Shown here: positions 22,609 through 29,649 of the stretch, in pieces | Position numbering within the stretch: the stretch's first letter is position 1 | Layout: every line of letters begins with the position of its first letter | IMG/VR virus record: IMGVR_UViG_3300022074_000215 | Coordinates: 1 to 31,897 of that record | Source: a virus | Reading direction: 5' to 3' (one strand) | Length of the DNA: 31,897 nucleotides | Program-made: the position numbers and the translations under genes | Notes under the pieces: model-generated | The model's input: only the letters and a program-made list of their open reading frames with translations | The model's database searches: none | What the model was told of the DNA's origin: nothing

Positions 22609-23078
22609 ATTTTAAAAGATCATTTAAAAAGTGTGAAGAATTTAGAATATGTTGTGCCTATGGAGATAAAGGAGTTGTTTATGTTGAAGAGCATGAAAAG
22701 AATAAAACATTATATTCAATACAAGTAAAAGGTTCTGGTAGATGTGCTACTGTCTTTAGTTCTGATTATATTGAGGGAAATGAAAATGATGCTAACTTTG
22801 GATGTATGAAACCATATATCGGTAAACATCTTATCTTTGAATCCTATGAACCTTTTATCCAGTATGGATTTAGCACTTTAAGTTACGATCAAGATTGGGA
22901 TGGTGAACTTGTAAAGGGATCATTTCAAGGTAACGAGAATAGTTGGTTAGTATGTTTCAAAGGTAATCCGATAATAAATGGTATCGAACTTAAAGTTATG
23001 GATTATGCAAAACTAGATAATAAACATTATGATGTACAATTAAATGATTCCTTAGTTGGTGTATTCACAAAATTATGA
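22605..23078 (+). CDS. Unknown protein in oxygenase operon (157 aa)
   Basis: I do not recognise a family. The protein looks beta-rich with a compact fold: FRICCAYGDKGVVYVEEHEK, LYSIQVKGSGRCATVFSSDY, HLIFESYEPFIQYGFSTLSY, WLVCFKGNPIINGIELKVMD. There are five Cys residues (CCAY, RCAT, GCMK and one late Cys), unusual for this phage, but no known metal motif. No HxD iron-binding motif is present, so it is not another 2OG enzyme. ATGA overlaps on both sides keep it in strict co-translation with the oxygenases. Confidence 0.65.
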   Translation: MNFKRSFKKCEEFRICCAYGDKGVVYVEEHEKNKTLYSIQVKGSGRCATVFSSDYIEGNENDANFGCMKPYIGKHLIFESYEPFIQYGFSTLSYDQDWDGELVKGSFQGNENSWLVCFKGNPIINGIELKVMDYAKLDNKHYDVQLNDSLVGVFTKL

Positions 23079-23770
23079 CCCTTAAGATAACAGATAATGT
23101 AACTAGAATTGAAAAAGAGGTTCAAGATGGTGATTTTAATTTAAATTTAAAAGATCACATATTATATCTACCATCTTTTATCAATTCTGATGTATGTAAA
23201 GATATAGTGAATAATTTAAAAAATGTCGGACTTGATAAATCCACACCATATACTGATGGGTTATTAAATGATTATACAGATTCTTATTTTGATCCTGACA
23301 TTTCTACAATTACAGATATAAAAAATAAAGTAAGTCAAGATGCTTTAAAATTATATGCAGAAAAAGTTAGAGCATATGATTGGTCATATCATAACTCAGA
23401 TAAATTTTTCCCATCAGAAATGATTGTAAGAAGATATAATAATAAATCTGAATTTAGTTATCATTATGATGATATTGTTGAGGAAATATTCCCACATTGG
23501 TTTGTTAGAAGAAAGAATATATTAACTTGTAATGTCTATTTAAATGATAATAATGAATATGATGGTGGTGATTTACATTTTGCATCCTGTAATCTTACAT
23601 TCAAACCAAAGATAGGTGATGTTATACTTTCACCATCAAACTGGATGTTCTTTCATAAAGTAAATGAGATTACATCTGGAGTGAGATACTCTGGTACATA
23701 CTGGTATTATTATGGTTCAGATAAAAAAGTTGGAAAAGGTATTAGTCATAGTAAAAACTTTTTAAAATGA
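23075..23770 (+). CDS. 2OG-Fe(II) oxygenase, prolyl-4-hydroxylase type
   Basis: The 231-residue protein has YLPSFINSDVCKDIVNNLKN near the N-terminus, then the catalytic beta-helix: EFSYHYDDIVEEIFPHW (His130-x-Asp132), NVYLNDNNEYDGGDLHFAS, KPKIGDVILSPSNWMFFHKV (His194) and SGVRYSGTYWYY (Arg204 for the oxoglutarate carboxylate). All four expected ligands are in place and correctly spaced, so it is probably active. The DGGDL motif and order match the P4H/PKHD group. The substrate is unknown; the operon context next to fibre genes suggests a phage structural protein or host target. Confidence 0.86.
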   Translation: MTLKITDNVTRIEKEVQDGDFNLNLKDHILYLPSFINSDVCKDIVNNLKNVGLDKSTPYTDGLLNDYTDSYFDPDISTITDIKNKVSQDALKLYAEKVRAYDWSYHNSDKFFPSEMIVRRYNNKSEFSYHYDDIVEEIFPHWFVRRKNILTCNVYLNDNNEYDGGDLHFASCNLTFKPKIGDVILSPSNWMFFHKVNEITSGVRYSGTYWYYYGSDKKVGKGISHSKNFLK

Positions 23771-24429
23771 TTAGATATACAATGTTAGAGACACAAATTT
23801 CTGAAGGAGAACATACTTCTTGTCATTTTTGTGTAGATAAATTTGAAGGATTACTTGATAAAGGACTAGACTTATCAAAGTATGAATTATCAATTACAGA
23901 TCCTAAAACACATTTTCACGTTCACTATTTAAATCGTGATGGCGATTATATTGAAAAAGAAGTTCTAGATGCCTATGATATAAATGTTGACTTTCCTGTC
24001 ATATTTTTTGGTAGAGAGTTACCTTATCGAGATGGATTTAGATGTGCATATCATTTAAGCACTTTGAAAAAATTAAAGTCACCATTTATAAAAGATGTTA
24101 TAAAAATAATAAAATTATTTAAGGGAAACTATATTGATATAATACTTGCGAGTGATTTTACACAAGATGGTGAGATAAGAAATAAAGATGTTAACATTGA
24201 AATCATACCACATATCAATAATCATAAGGAGATAGGTGAAATATTAGAAAATAATTTTGAGTTACCTAAACTAGATTATTACAAGGAGAGTTTTAATGAT
24301 TATAATGAAAAAGATTTTGCGTGGCATATTAAGATTAAATTATTTCGATATATAAAAATACCGATAGTAAAATTTTATAGAACATATCCTAACAATCCAT
24401 ATCTACATTTTAAATATTATGATAAGTAA
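23767..24429 (+). CDS. Unknown protein in oxygenase operon (220 aa)
   Basis: I recognise no family. The N-terminal half has a His-rich stretch THFHVHYLNRDGDYIEKEVL (about residues 48-67) and two Cys in HTSCHFCVDKFEG, a CxxC metal-like pair. The middle has a hydrophobic helix pair (VIKIIKLFKGNYIDIILASD) and the C-terminus is basic and aromatic (KIKLFRYIKIPIVKFYRTYP). It is not a 2OG enzyme by motif. The upstream overlap is ATGA and the downstream overlap is 11 bases. The C-x-x-C/H-rich N-terminus could bind a metal; this is speculative. Confidence 0.6.
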   Translation: MIRYTMLETQISEGEHTSCHFCVDKFEGLLDKGLDLSKYELSITDPKTHFHVHYLNRDGDYIEKEVLDAYDINVDFPVIFFGRELPYRDGFRCAYHLSTLKKLKSPFIKDVIKIIKLFKGNYIDIILASDFTQDGEIRNKDVNIEIIPHINNHKEIGEILENNFELPKLDYYKESFNDYNEKDFAWHIKIKLFRYIKIPIVKFYRTYPNNPYLHFKYYDK

Positions 24430-24949
24430 AACTGATTTGAAAAATTTATACGAGTGGGCAAAGCATAAAGATTTTCCTGTTAGAAAAACTCCTACGACAA
24501 GTGGACTTTATAAAAAACCTTATGGAACTAATAAAATTCATTCATATTGTAATAAAGATATTTTTAGTTTTCCTCTGAAGTTTGGTCGTAGAAAAGTAAC
24601 CATCCGTGAAAGTTTAATGCCAACAAATATTGCAAATATATTTAAGAATGAGGATATATTATATACCGTAGTTTCAATATTTCAAAGTGGAACTTTCTTA
24701 AAACCACATCGTGACCCACACATATATCAATTTCCATATAAAAGAATACAAATACCACTAGAGATACCAGATAAAAATAAATGTTACATGGAGTGGACTG
24801 ATATAAAAGGTGGAAGAGTAGATTGGGATGAAGGTGTGCCACAAGTTTGTGATGTTATGCATCATACTCATCAGGCATTTAATAAGTCAGATAAGGATAT
24901 GGTTATGATGTTTATAGATGTGAAAATGGATACTGAGGTAGAGTTATGA
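24419..24949 (+). CDS. 2OG-Fe(II) oxygenase, aspartyl/asparaginyl beta-hydroxylase type
   Basis: The 176-residue protein has SIFQSGTFLKPHRDPHIYQF (His97-x-Asp99), then RIQIPLEIPDKNKCYMEWTD and VCDVMHHTHQAFNKSDKDMV with His151 and Asn155, and a final MMFIDV strand. The PHxDP, R-x-x-x-P-L and H-x-x-x-N order is that of the aspartyl/asparaginyl beta-hydroxylase group, which hydroxylates Asp/Asn side chains in proteins. The usual C-terminal Arg before the last strand is replaced by Lys/Asp (KSDKD), so oxoglutarate binding may differ. ATG 24419 overlaps the previous gene by 11 bases and its stop forms ATGA with the next gene. Confidence 0.75.
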   Translation: MISKTDLKNLYEWAKHKDFPVRKTPTTSGLYKKPYGTNKIHSYCNKDIFSFPLKFGRRKVTIRESLMPTNIANIFKNEDILYTVVSIFQSGTFLKPHRDPHIYQFPYKRIQIPLEIPDKNKCYMEWTDIKGGRVDWDEGVPQVCDVMHHTHQAFNKSDKDMVMMFIDVKMDTEVEL

Positions 24950-25521
24950 ATGATATACAAATAGATGTCATAGATAATTTCTTTGATGAGGAATTACAAG
25001 ACGAAATTTTTAAAAAAATAAAGTCTTCTAAGTGGTCTTTCAATGGGGGTAGTTTGAGGAATCCTATCTGGCATGTTGACAATTTAGAACAGGATAAATT
25101 CTTTAGTCATTATGTTCAAGATTTGATTCTGAACAAATTTAATTTAATCAATTCAAAATGTATAAGGATATATGCGAATGGTCAAACAGGTGGTATGAAT
25201 GGAGATCCACATATAGATGATGGACATTTAACTTTCTTATATTTTGCAAATCCAACTTGGAATGTTGATTGGGGTGGTCATCTTGCATTTTTAAATATTT
25301 TAGGTAAAATGTATGATGGTGATGAATATGGAAATGTAGGTCAATCTTGGTATGATTGGGATTATGCACCAAGCATTGAAGATGAAATTGAAAAGGTAAT
25401 AACCTATAAACCAAATAGAGGAGTTCTCTTTCCCTCTAATCTTGTTCATTATGCGATGGCTCCCCATACATTTTTTAAAGGCATGAGAATCTCACTCGCA
25501 TACAAATTCTTTTTATATTGA
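24946..25521 (+). CDS. 2OG-Fe(II) oxygenase, P4H-like
   Basis: The 191-residue protein starts with IDVIDNFFDEELQDEIFKKI, a classic entry helix of this group, then shows GDPHIDDGHLTFLYFANPTW (His89-x-Asp91), WGGHLAFLN, ITYKPNRGVLFPSNLVHYAM (His168) and GMRISLAYKF (Arg181). All catalytic ligands are present, and GGHL replaces the usual GGEL/GGDL. The layout resembles bacterial P4H-type hydroxylases with small-molecule or protein substrates. A 30-residue acidic loop (DGDEYGNVGQSWYDWDYAPS) lies between the strands and may line the substrate site. Overlaps are ATGA upstream and TGATG downstream. Confidence 0.85.
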   Translation: MNDIQIDVIDNFFDEELQDEIFKKIKSSKWSFNGGSLRNPIWHVDNLEQDKFFSHYVQDLILNKFNLINSKCIRIYANGQTGGMNGDPHIDDGHLTFLYFANPTWNVDWGGHLAFLNILGKMYDGDEYGNVGQSWYDWDYAPSIEDEIEKVITYKPNRGVLFPSNLVHYAMAPHTFFKGMRISLAYKFFLY

Positions 25522-26150
25522 TGGAAACACTAGATACAGATTTATATAGAGATCCATTTCCCCATATGATTGTAAAAAACTTTTATAATGATAGTGAGTT
25601 GAAGTTGATATGGGAGGAACTAGATTTTTATACCAAACCTGATAAGTTATTAGATGCGAAATATTATGGTGGGGTAGTGACTCATACTAATTCAAAAGCA
25701 TTATGGTTAGATAAAATATATAAGGATAAATATCGAAGTCTATCTAACATATTAACTGTCAATCGAAAAGTATTTGATTCAGCAATTCTTGACGCATTTT
25801 CATCTGTTCATGATTGTTGTTCAATCGCTAGACATTCAAATAATGATCAAACAAAGATAAGATATTATCATGACGGTGATTATTATGAACCACATACAGA
25901 TAAAACTGTTCAATTTTTAGGTTTTTCATATTTCTATCGTGAACCAAAAAGATTTCAAGGGGGTGAGTTAATCTTTCCTAAGTATGATTATACTTTTGAT
26001 TGCCCTAATAATTCATTGATTATGATGCCCGGCTGGGTAGAACATGGTGTGTCTAAAATTTCAATCAAAAATTCAGATTACTTTGATGGATATGGAAGAT
26101 ATGCTGTTACGAGTTTCTTTAGTAATAAAGATAAGAAAGAAACTGAATAA
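25521..26150 (+). CDS. 2OG-Fe(II) oxygenase, P4H-like
   Basis: The 209-residue protein has DPFPHMIVKNFYNDSELKLI at the N-terminus, IRYYHDGDYYEPHTDKTVQF with His125-x-Asp127, GFSYFYREPKRFQGGELIFP, SLIMMPGWVEHGV (His175) and GRYAVTSFF (Arg193). The full iron and oxoglutarate set is present. ATG 25521 forms TGATG with the upstream stop; an in-frame TTG at 25518 is less likely. It is the last gene of the operon. Its final codons and stop overlap the 17-base repeat that carries a late promoter for the next fibre gene. Confidence 0.85.
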   Translation: METLDTDLYRDPFPHMIVKNFYNDSELKLIWEELDFYTKPDKLLDAKYYGGVVTHTNSKALWLDKIYKDKYRSLSNILTVNRKVFDSAILDAFSSVHDCCSIARHSNNDQTKIRYYHDGDYYEPHTDKTVQFLGFSYFYREPKRFQGGELIFPKYDYTFDCPNNSLIMMPGWVEHGVSKISIKNSDYFDGYGRYAVTSFFSNKDKKETE

Positions 26151-26172: not shown

Positions 26173-28893
26173 ATGGCTGATATAAGAAAGACCTTTAATT
26201 TCAGAGATGGGGTACAAGTAGACGATGAAGTTCTAGTTGTTAGAGGCAATCGTGTGGGTTTGGGTACTACGAGTCCAGATCAATTATTAGACGTAAGAGG
26301 AAATGCAAATATAACAGGAGTTACATCTACAGTAAACTTTAATGTAACTGGTGTTGGTACATTTAATCAGATTAAACTCGGAAGCGGAATTATATTAGGA
26401 AATGCGGGTGTCATCACAGCAACCACATTCTCTGGGGATGGTGCATCACTTACAAATATACCAACTTCACAATGGACAGATGTAGGAGCAGCATCAATAT
26501 ACAATGACGGTAGCGTGGGAGTGGGGACTACCAACCCAGCCAACCCTTTCCAAGTGGGTGGAGATCCTAATAATGGTATAGGAGTTGGATTTAGTACATC
26601 AGGCAATATAAAGGCATCTGGTATCATTACAGCGACCACGTTTTCAGGAGCATTAAATGGTAGTGTCACAGGTAATGTAACTGGAAATCTTACAGGTAAT
26701 GCAGATACAGCGACTTATGCAGGGGTAGCAGGGGTAGCGACTGTTGCACAAAACTTGACAGGAAATCCAAGTATAAGTGTAACTAACGTCAATGCTTCAG
26801 GTGTTGGAACATTCCCAAATCTGGTGACAACTGATTTAAGCACAGTCACCTTGAAGGGTTACAACTCACTCAGAGCCCCACATGGTACAACAGTTACGAT
26901 TGTTGTTACAGTTGCAGCAAAGACAGCAGCACACAGATATAACGGTTCAGGTAGTAGTAATGGATTTAAACTTGATGGTGTCGAAGCACCTTACTTAACT
27001 CTCACACCCGGCCGTACTTACCGTTTTGATGTTTCAGATGGTACAAACGCAGGTCATCCATTAAGATTTTATTATGATGTAGATAAGACAACACCATATA
27101 CTACAGGTGTCACAGCATCAGGTAATGCAGGTGTATCAGGAAGTTATGTTGATTTAGTTATCTCAGATACTACACCAAGTGTCTTACATTATCAATGTTC
27201 ATCTCATTCTAAGATGGGTAACTCAGTTCAAACTGGGTCAAATATTTTAGATACAGAGCATAACTCACAGGTACGAGGTACGTTAACTGCAACTTCATTG
27301 GTTGGAGCATTAACTGGTAATGTCGCAGGTAATGTTACAGGTAATTTAACTGGAACTGCTGTTACTTCAACTACATTCTTTGGAAACGTAACTGGTACAG
27401 GAATAACTGCTACAACATTTACAGGGTCATTAGTCGGTGGTGTAACTGGAAACGTCACAGGACTGATAAATTCAGTCGGTGTATCTACGATTACTAGATT
27501 ATCTACAACAAATATAACTGCTACTGGTGTCTCTACATTTACTGATATTGATATAAGTGGAACAGCAGACTTACCAAATGTTTATACATCAGGTATTGGT
27601 ACATTTACGAGATCATTTGCGACTAATTTAAATGTCTCAGGTGTCTCTACATTTGGAAATAATATTGTTGCACAGGGTAATCTAGATGTAGATGGACTGA
27701 CAACTTTAGATGATGTTAATGTATCAGCAGCTGCTACGATTGCAAAGGCAGTTATCTCTGCACTTAATGTCTCAGGTGTCACAACATCCACAGGTGGATT
27801 TGTAGGTGCATTGACAGGAAATGCAACTGGATTATCAGGTACACCAACTGTAGTTGTTAATGGATTAACAGCAACCACATCAAAGTTAGGTGTGTCAACA
27901 GCTACGAGTATTGGTATAGGTACTGACACAGCAAATGCAAATTTACAAATTCATAATGCTTCAGGTGCATCATCTATTGTAGTTGGTCAAAACTCAGCAG
28001 TTGCAGATAATAATTTACAATTAAGATATGGTGGTGGAGCATCAGCATATAGTACTTCTGACTCTGTTGACTTAATTAACTATGGAGATGGAAACCTTAA
28101 CTCATTTATAACTGGAACAAGTAATTTCAATTGGTTGAAAGGAAATTCAAATATCTTGATGTCTCTTACAGATTCAGGTAATTTAGGTATTGGTAAGACA
28201 GACCCTACTGATAGATTACATGTTCAAGGTAATGCCAGAATTACAGGTGTGACTACATTTACTGGAAATGTCACGATGAGTAACTTGACAGTTCCAATAC
28301 TGAATATCGCTGACGTATCTGCAAACCTAATTGGTAATGTTAACTCTGCGGGTATATCAACATTCAGACTTATGCACATAGATGGTGTAGGAGAGGGTAT
28401 TGGTGTTGGTGGAACTGCAAGTGGAAACTTTATTAACGCTGGTAATACACCATTGAACACAACATTTGTTGGTTCTGCAACTACTAACACCAGTAGAATT
28501 TTCTCTAGAGAAGGTGCTGTAGGAGTTGGAACTGATAGATTTACACATTTAGGAGGAGGTTCCGTTCCATCATTGGAAGTGAGAGGTGCGACTATGGTTC
28601 ATGGTGGTTTCTTTAAAGTTGGTGGAAAATCATCCCCTGTAACAGACCAAAATGCAAGATCACTGATCGACTTTAGTGAGGCCACTTCTGCTCATGACGC
28701 AGGTAATCCACTTGCACCAGTAGCATACATGATTGTACCAAGAGGTACAACAGCACAGAGAAACGCTCTAAGAGATGGTATTTCAGGTTCGACAACTCTG
28801 ATGACAGGTTCGATGTTCTATGATACTGATTTAAATAAATTATGTGTATATGACAATGGTGGTTGGAAAGGAGTTACACTCGGAGCATTGTAA
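26173..28893 (+). CDS. Tail fibre protein with embedded cupredoxin-like domain
   Basis: The 906-residue protein has an N-terminal ADIRKTFNFRDGVQVDDEVL motif shared by fibres of marine T4-like phages and a repetitive shaft: VGLGTTSPDQLLDVRGNA, ITATTFSGDGASLTNIP, GNVTGNLTGNADTA and many copies of SGVSTF/TGVSTF. At about 232-355 a non-repeat domain is inserted with LTPGRTYRFDVSDGTNAGHP and SVLHYQCSSHSKMGNSV. His295, Cys342, His345 and Met348 have type-1 copper-site order. The C-terminus (about 815-906) ends SMFYDTDLNKLCVYDNGGWK and GVTLGAL, a common fibre end domain. It probably forms a trimeric tail fibre. It is behind the AATAAATA late box. Confidence 0.8.
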   Translation: MADIRKTFNFRDGVQVDDEVLVVRGNRVGLGTTSPDQLLDVRGNANITGVTSTVNFNVTGVGTFNQIKLGSGIILGNAGVITATTFSGDGASLTNIPTSQWTDVGAASIYNDGSVGVGTTNPANPFQVGGDPNNGIGVGFSTSGNIKASGIITATTFSGALNGSVTGNVTGNLTGNADTATYAGVAGVATVAQNLTGNPSISVTNVNASGVGTFPNLVTTDLSTVTLKGYNSLRAPHGTTVTIVVTVAAKTAAHRYNGSGSSNGFKLDGVEAPYLTLTPGRTYRFDVSDGTNAGHPLRFYYDVDKTTPYTTGVTASGNAGVSGSYVDLVISDTTPSVLHYQCSSHSKMGNSVQTGSNILDTEHNSQVRGTLTATSLVGALTGNVAGNVTGNLTGTAVTSTTFFGNVTGTGITATTFTGSLVGGVTGNVTGLINSVGVSTITRLSTTNITATGVSTFTDIDISGTADLPNVYTSGIGTFTRSFATNLNVSGVSTFGNNIVAQGNLDVDGLTTLDDVNVSAAATIAKAVISALNVSGVTTSTGGFVGALTGNATGLSGTPTVVVNGLTATTSKLGVSTATSIGIGTDTANANLQIHNASGASSIVVGQNSAVADNNLQLRYGGGASAYSTSDSVDLINYGDGNLNSFITGTSNFNWLKGNSNILMSLTDSGNLGIGKTDPTDRLHVQGNARITGVTTFTGNVTMSNLTVPILNIADVSANLIGNVNSAGISTFRLMHIDGVGEGIGVGGTASGNFINAGNTPLNTTFVGSATTNTSRIFSREGAVGVGTDRFTHLGGGSVPSLEVRGATMVHGGFFKVGGKSSPVTDQNARSLIDFSEATSAHDAGNPLAPVAYMIVPRGTTAQRNALRDGISGSTTLMTGSMFYDTDLNKLCVYDNGGWKGVTLGAL

Positions 28894-28962: not shown

Positions 28963-29649
28963 ATGCCAGACATTTTTAATGTTTTCCCATTGACGATATA
29001 TGTTGATAAGGTAAGCAAGCACGAGATTTATAAAGAGGATTTTTACAAGTTATATCCGAAGTATGATTATGTCGAGAATGAGAGATCGAATACTGTAAGT
29101 GAAGGACAGGTTGACCCACTCATACATCTCGAACCATCTTTAAATCCATTATTCACAGAGATCGCAGGTCATGTGAGAAGGTATATACATGATACTTTGA
29201 AGTTTCGAGATATATTCAACATCACATTCACAAAGACATGGTTGTCTCGTATGAGAGATTGTAGTGAGATACCTTTACATATACATTCGACAAGTCATAT
29301 TTCATTTGTATATTATTTAAATACCCCACCAAATTCACATAAACTTACATTTCATAATCCACATTGCTCAAATAGTTTATTCAAGACATCAACTTCTGAT
29401 AAGGGCATTGCTGATATGAATATGGTAGAGGAATATAATTTACTGAACTCAAATACATTCTATCTGAATCCACAGGAGGGATGTGTGATTTTATTTCCAA
29501 GTAGTGTGTTGCATGGAACTGAATCGGTGGTGTCAGATTTCAAAGGTGAGAGGTTGGCGATAGTCGGTGACATCACATTAATATTAAAAGAAGAACATCT
29601 ACAATTTACAAATGGATATGTCGATCAAAAGTATTGGAGACAGTTCTAA
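28963..29649 (+). CDS. 2OG-Fe(II) oxygenase, Oxy_5 type
   Basis: The 228-residue protein starts PDIFNVFPLTIYVDKVSKHE and has TKTWLSRMRDCSEIPLHIHS, TSHISFVYYLNTPPNSHKLT, a variable loop, and EGCVILFPSSVLHGTESV followed by GERLAIVGDITLIL. This is the pattern of the putative 2OG-Fe(II) oxygenase group with H-x-H-P-x-S-type first motif (His106, His108), distal His184 and Arg197. The family is common in marine T4-like phages. It stands alone behind its own extended -10 promoter, away from the operon, and immediately upstream of uvsW. Confidence 0.78.
   Translation: MPDIFNVFPLTIYVDKVSKHEIYKEDFYKLYPKYDYVENERSNTVSEGQVDPLIHLEPSLNPLFTEIAGHVRRYIHDTLKFRDIFNITFTKTWLSRMRDCSEIPLHIHSTSHISFVYYLNTPPNSHKLTFHNPHCSNSLFKTSTSDKGIADMNMVEEYNLLNSNTFYLNPQEGCVILFPSSVLHGTESVVSDFKGERLAIVGDITLILKEEHLQFTNGYVDQKYWRQF

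Follow-up and report, generated by a model that had tools for sequence, protein, structure and literature searches.

What is a folded domain with the residues of a putative copper site doing inside the shaft of a phage tail fibre? The window (the whole stretch of DNA analysed here, 31,897 bases) is a virus record with myovirus tail genes, among them those for a tail tube, a baseplate hub, a tail lysozyme and tail-fibre proteins. In one fibre protein of 906 residues, fibre-type repeats of the GNVTGNLTG kind flank a stretch of other character, with GNVTGNLTGN upstream and GALTGNVAGNVTGNLTG downstream. The first-pass annotation of this DNA had described a non-repeat domain of about 120 residues interrupting the fibre repeats and carrying His295, Cys342, His345 and Met348; all of these residues and their numbers proved correct. 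Its placement at 26866-27240 holds at the end, which falls at residue 356 (27240), and is about five residues too early at the start. The ligand candidates lie in two motifs, GHPLRF from residue 294 and YQCSSHSKMG from residue 340. The features referred to below are the following.

26173..28893, + strand: tail fibre gene, 906 amino acids (open reading frame; PHROG tail families phrog_30742, 2.1e-72, and phrog_3269, 7.4e-44)
26173..26847, + strand: N-terminal part, residues 1-225, with fibre repeats at its end (phrog_3269 match over residues 1-190; common to fibres that lack the domain)
26881..27240, + strand: cupredoxin-like domain, residues 237-356 (AlphaFold2 model, pLDDT 96.4, pTM 0.89; Foldseek and VIA matches to copper proteins)
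27055..27057, + strand: His295, first putative copper ligand, in G-H-P-L-R-F (His in 425/425 copies; aligns with the plastocyanin ligand His)
27196..27198, + strand: Cys342, putative thiolate ligand (Cys in 425/425 copies; sole Cys of the domain)
27205..27207, + strand: His345, putative ligand (His in 425/425 copies)
27214..27216, + strand: Met348, putative axial ligand (Met in 424/425 copies; one residue later in the remaining copy)
27268..28890, + strand: distal fibre, with renewed repeats and then a faster-evolving C-terminal part (sequence; dN/dS 0.21-0.59 against 0.14-0.23 for the domain)

The N-terminal part (residues 1-225) would be the baseplate-proximal end of the fibre. Around the fibre gene are five genes for 2OG-Fe(II) oxygenase-like or Asp/Arg-hydroxylase-like proteins (23075-23770, 24419-24949, 24946-25521, 25518-26150 and 28963-29649), assigned by Pfam, two of the five below the curated cut-off. 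Their products might hydroxylate tail proteins.

Predicted fold of the inserted domain

A cupredoxin fold had been suggested for the domain, to be checked by structure prediction and fold comparison and to be dropped if the predicted fold were unrelated. The prediction is cupredoxin-like, and the unrelated outcome did not occur. A first model, covering residues 216-366 and built from 39 alignment rows, had a pLDDT of 76.9 overall and 84-97 in the blocks spanning residues 51 to 140; its best PDB matches were to rusticyanin (E 1.9e-5; VIA Z 8.8, rmsd 2.8 over 100). A second AlphaFold2 model, of residues 237-356 and from 51 more diverse rows, reached a pLDDT of 96.4 and a pTM of 0.89, with eight strands. 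Foldseek comparison of this model with the PDB gave rusticyanins and a copper nitrite reductase at ranks 1-9 (E 7.7e-4 to 1.1e-2, TMq 0.51-0.55), a single match having E <=0.001 and the TM-scores being moderate, at about 0.5. Ranks 10, 12 and 23 were SO1698, a Shewanella protein that carries the description aspartic peptidase. By VIA the best match was the nitrite reductase 2dv6 (Z 9.2, rmsd 2.5 over 98 residues), and the 50 matches listed were all copper proteins, namely nitrite reductases, rusticyanins and laccases. Because the structural scores are moderate, we limit the claim to a predicted cupredoxin-like fold (a Greek-key beta-sandwich) and propose no close kinship to any one family.

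Searches of family databases call for the same restraint. The window protein reached no curated Pfam cut-off. For PF00127 (plastocyanin/azurin) it gave no match at E up to 10, and only one of 39 relatives matched (best E 0.027); the domain is therefore not filed as a member of PF00127. PF25489, the At5g54830-like domain, resembles the phage domain over 112 of its 120 residues (E 0.00068) and was the best Pfam match of 18 of the 39 relatives, counting E up to 1, yet the score of 20.1 bits falls short of the curated cut-off of 27 bits. NCBIfam gave weak matches, mostly to unrelated families; its amicyanin model, TIGR02657, did not match the window domain and matched one of the 39 relatives at E 0.076.

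The putative copper site and its ligand register

The four candidate ligands lie at or beside strand ends and in a loop of the model. His295 (domain residue 59) stands directly ahead of strand 61-64, Cys342 (106) is the last residue of strand 101-106, and His345 (109) and Met348 (112) lie in the loop ahead of strand 114-117. This placement between strands is the arrangement known from cupredoxins. Moreover, when the domain family (39 diverse domains) was aligned by hhalign with 32 PF00127 sequences, the ligands paired His with His, Cys with Cys, His with His and Met with Met, at a score of 37.3 and a probability of 83%; the best of 60 column shuffles scored 18.1 and the reversed alignment 9.4. 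With the four ligand columns masked the score dropped to 16.8, the level of the shuffles, so it is the ligand motif that carries the sequence link to PF00127.

The first-pass annotation had likened both the ligand order and the C-x2-H-x2-M spacing to plastocyanin and azurin. The order stands. The spacing does not, since cyanobacterial plastocyanins have C-x2-H-x4-M, unlike the phage domain. Azurin has C-x4-H-x3-M, and C-x2-H-x2-M is the spacing of amicyanin. The phage spacing also occurs in one fetched PF00127 protein (L192) and in the C-terminal domains of two nitrite reductases. Profile searches of the PDB found copper proteins with weak E-values only; in these alignments the phage loop is matched by the Cys-His-Met loops of pseudoazurin and nitrite reductases. 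Copper proteins made up two of three matches in one search (best 0.11; the third was a desmoglein), four of six in another, where the top match, a SUMO protein (E 0.0056), and an scFv are regarded as chance, and five of seven in a third (best 0.013), where Elongin-B and a toxin component are regarded likewise. A single-sequence PDB search gave no match.

One further protein deserves mention here: a 148-residue PF00127 protein encoded in a Prochlorococcus single-cell genome (L189; G001:C5:112545-112796). With its HPFYIKT...CSPHASFGMGG it has the look of an intermediate between plastocyanin-type proteins and the phage domain.

Two trivial explanations of the motif can be set aside. Chance is excluded by its rarity, the C..H..M pattern arising 7 times when the fibre protein was randomly permuted 20,000 times, together with its conservation across the wide survey of domain copies described below. 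An internal disulphide is excluded because the Cys is the only one in 423 of 436 domains.

Conservation and decay of the site

The first-pass annotation had proposed a survey of other marine phage fibres for the motif. The H...C-x2-H-x2-M set recurs in relatives with as little as about 30% identity. All four ligand residues are invariant in the window domain and 38 relatives at >=53% identity. Among 39 diverse domains, with identities as low as 29%, six columns never vary, three of them the His, Cys and His, and Met is present in 38; the exception is gp7 of P-HM1, where it comes one residue later (C-x2-H-x3-M). Six domains were left out of this alignment (the second domains of L172, L174 and L176; L178; L180; and L162:4296-4685, whose site is intact), and it is to be read together with the wide survey. 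That survey comprised 436 domains, of which 425 span both ligand regions. His, Cys and His are found in 425 of these 425 copies and Met in 424. Since one locus set repeats contigs of another, the raw counts run too high and clusters are the better unit: at 70% identity the site is complete in 47 of 48 clusters, and the remaining cluster has its Met shifted one residue towards the C-terminus. Some loci had been fetched with patterns containing ligand residues; in the subset fetched by patterns without them, 28 of 29 clusters have the complete site. By comparison, the median column is conserved in just 46% of 47 clusters, and mean pairwise identity is 38%. A natural loop-length variant, C-x4-H-x2-M, occurs in S-SKS1 (L508, Cys583 of the protein). 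Ligands that persist through changes in their spacing are what a metal site leads one to expect.

These data bear on the suggestion that the window carries a decayed cupredoxin. With the four residues intact in 424 of the 425 copies spanning both regions, the site is maintained, and for the window copy the suggestion falls. Decay does occur elsewhere. Of the 11 domains in the 436 that fall short of both ligand regions, three are cut by contig ends (L354, L355, L360) and eight are decayed, without the Cys-His-Met region: the second domains of L172, L174, L176, L179, L165 and L162, and L178 and L180. The decayed second domains belong to proteins of S-H9-2, S-H9-1, ACG-2014h, S-CAM4, Syn1 and P-SSM7, and the single ones to S-CREM1 and MS29; several share their protein with an intact copy. 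In these proteins, then, the fold can outlast the site.

Such copies are the natural starting point for a reading without metal, in which the cupredoxin fold would serve as a receptor-binding or spacer domain and the four residues would be kept for packing or hydrogen bonds. Ephrins employ the fold without copper, the eight decayed copies occur in the same kinds of protein, and masking the ligand columns abolishes the sequence link to PF00127. We nevertheless consider this reading unlikely, given a lone Cys, two His and a Met that stay invariant across clusters with a mean pairwise identity of 38% and through loop-length changes.

If a metal is bound, it need not be copper. A lone Cys with two His and a Met could plausibly bind a different soft metal (zinc or iron, for instance) in a structural role within a cupredoxin-like fold, and iron is known in the fibre tips of T4 gp37 (PMC11705849). 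The fibre itself has no HxH motif anywhere in its 906 residues. Moreover, the conserved Met as fourth residue and the C-x2-H-x2-M loop suit copper more than zinc, and we give a site for another metal a low probability. A mononuclear copper site is the best explanation for a cupredoxin-like fold that bears a complete and invariant His-Cys-His-Met set and a single Cys.

Distribution among phages and cells

By tblastn, the window domain as query found 76 of 50,697 phage records, mostly of cyanophages, together with Pelagibacter and Methylophilales phages. Divergent copies reached further: that of P-GSP1 found 339 records and the gp9 copy of ACG-2014a 321, from organisms named as Synechococcus or Prochlorococcus phage, cyanophage, marine virus or, in one case, uncultured. 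Among the matches listed, 23 of 30 (P-GSP1 query) and 9 of 12 (ACG-2014a query) carry the annotation gp9 or baseplate wedge tail-fibre connector. The hosts identified belong to the aquatic, mainly marine, plankton. In all eight cyanophage gp9 proteins examined (L501-L507 and L162), a sample from the hundreds of records found, the domain is C-terminal and its site intact. Further copies lie in tail fibres, gp7, baseplate proteins and other virion proteins.

Fibres like that of the window need not have the domain. Among 39 loci sharing the N-terminal part of the fibre, 24 (N-terminal identity 58-100%) carry it around residues 240-380, 12 with sufficiently long reading frames and 40-50% N-terminal identity are without it, and three are too short to judge. 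The 12 domain-less fibres indicate that such fibres can be assembled without the domain.

Recent pick-up of a cellular gene finds no support. A plasmid search for the domain gave no match in 72,556 records, and of 145 genomes in the same class as the Prochlorococcus single-cell genome one had the domain, on a contig (41,291) equal in length to an IMG/VR virus contig. In Flavobacterium and Planctomycete contigs (L085 and L084), phage head or tail genes adjoin the domain.

A proposed role near the baseplate-fibre joint

A receptor-binding role had also been put forward. Two results argue against it: the domain sits just after the N-terminal part, and when the window is compared with 10 relatives, all 10 pairs give the domain a lower dN/dS (0.14-0.23) than the distal fibre (0.21-0.59), a result to be taken with care because the repeats are hard to align and dS is high in some pairs. 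Proximal position, slow evolution and recurrence at the C-terminus of gp9 together suggest conserved mechanical work where baseplate and fibre meet, rather than the reading of hosts.

Computation places the domain, with its fold and conserved ligands, at this point in the chain and across these phages. The explanation that we favour goes beyond this: a mononuclear, type-1-like site, most likely for copper, within a conserved module near the baseplate-fibre joint that would serve as a spacer or joint stabilised by the metal. As a whole this explanation has somewhat better than an even chance of being right. In the tail fibre of this marine phage, a cupredoxin-like beta-sandwich inserted in the proximal shaft would hold one mononuclear ion, most likely copper, through His295, Cys342, His345 and Met348 in an amicyanin-type C-x2-H-x2-M loop. 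Free copper being scarce in the host cytoplasm, the site would probably be vacant there and would take up its metal after the virion arrives in the periplasm or in seawater. Once bound, the metal would staple and stiffen a rigid module at or near the joint. That the domain binds a metal at all seems to us quite probable, and that the metal is copper reasonably likely; the structural role at the joint is put forward tentatively.

A different use of the same site would be as a redox sensor or electron-transfer module, with Cu(I)/Cu(II) cycling at the host envelope triggering or gating fibre deployment. Cupredoxins with such a fold are mostly electron carriers, the type-1 ligand set is complete, and the domain is found at cyanophage gp9, whose T4 homologue participates in triggering contraction. 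However, the fibre showed no recognisable second redox centre, and the hosts include heterotrophs (Pelagibacter, Methylophilales), so that a photosynthetic partner would not be general. On balance this use is improbable. Still less probable is its boldest extension, in which a working blue-copper site would be standard in the virions of marine T4-like cyanophages and other ocean phages, placed where baseplate and fibre join (C-terminus of gp9 and proximal fibre), its copper binding or redox state would lock or deploy the fibres, and adsorption would depend on the trace copper of seawater.

Virion copper might instead be recognised by a copper-uptake receptor of the host, or virions might scavenge or deliver copper, on the model of the Trojan Horse idea put forward for iron in HxH fibres (PMC11705849). 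The aquatic, mainly marine plankton hosts would fit. The domain, however, is conserved and lies outside the faster-evolving distal part, and it recurs in gp9 and baseplate proteins, which are not known as receptor readers; a copper Trojan horse is very unlikely. The stapled structural module remains our preferred account of the domain.

Relation to known systems

The phage domain shares its fold and the ligand order His...Cys-His-Met with amicyanin, pseudoazurin, plastocyanin and rusticyanin; its ligand register is that of plastocyanin and its ligand-loop spacing that of amicyanin. Its first His precedes Pro, as in multicopper oxidases, and not Asn. Unlike the single-domain cupredoxins, it sits in a virion protein and lacks a curated Pfam match, and an electron-transfer role for it is putative. 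The copper nitrite reductases offer tethered counterparts, with the cupredoxin domain N-terminal in 2dv6 and 6tfo and C-terminal in 6hbe and 9cck; the Y-x-C-x2-H-P-x-M-x-G loops of the latter two align with the phage profile. Those domains are tethered to an enzyme, whereas the phage fibre has no recognised enzyme domain.

Among phage proteins, the nearest counterpart is cyanophage gp9, the baseplate wedge tail fibre connector (phrog_677), whose C-terminal domain belongs to the same family; 50 of 51 members of the set A3 match phrog_677. There the domain is terminal in a short connector, whereas in the window fibre it lies inside the shaft. HxH iron sites are described for the tail fibres of T4 (gp37) and of Alteromonas phage R22Y (PMC11705849). 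The present proposal likewise puts a metal site in a phage tail fibre, but in a folded domain of its own that has Cys and Met and no HxH. Cyanophages also carry plastocyanin genes (petE; PMC3037559); these are separate photosynthesis genes, whereas the cupredoxin-like domain of the window is part of a virion protein. The papers searched, few of them from subscription journals, yielded no description of phage tails with a cupredoxin domain.

Should the domain bind copper, then the tails of hundreds of sequenced phages that infect the most abundant bacteria of the ocean would bear the metal in stoichiometric amounts, the metal chemistry of phage tails would reach beyond iron, and phage stability or adsorption could depend on trace copper. 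An easily purified domain and the gp9 of laboratory cyanophages provide test material. Even a purely structural site would account for a domain annotated so far as "tail fibre" or "hypothetical".

Outside the tailed phages, BFVD matches to the domain model included A0A481Z6J5, A0A481YY19 and other small "beta-sandwich proteins" of Pithovirus and Marseillevirus relatives (TMq 0.78 and TMt 0.76 for A0A481Z6J5). These giant-virus proteins are possible single-domain relatives of the phage domain.
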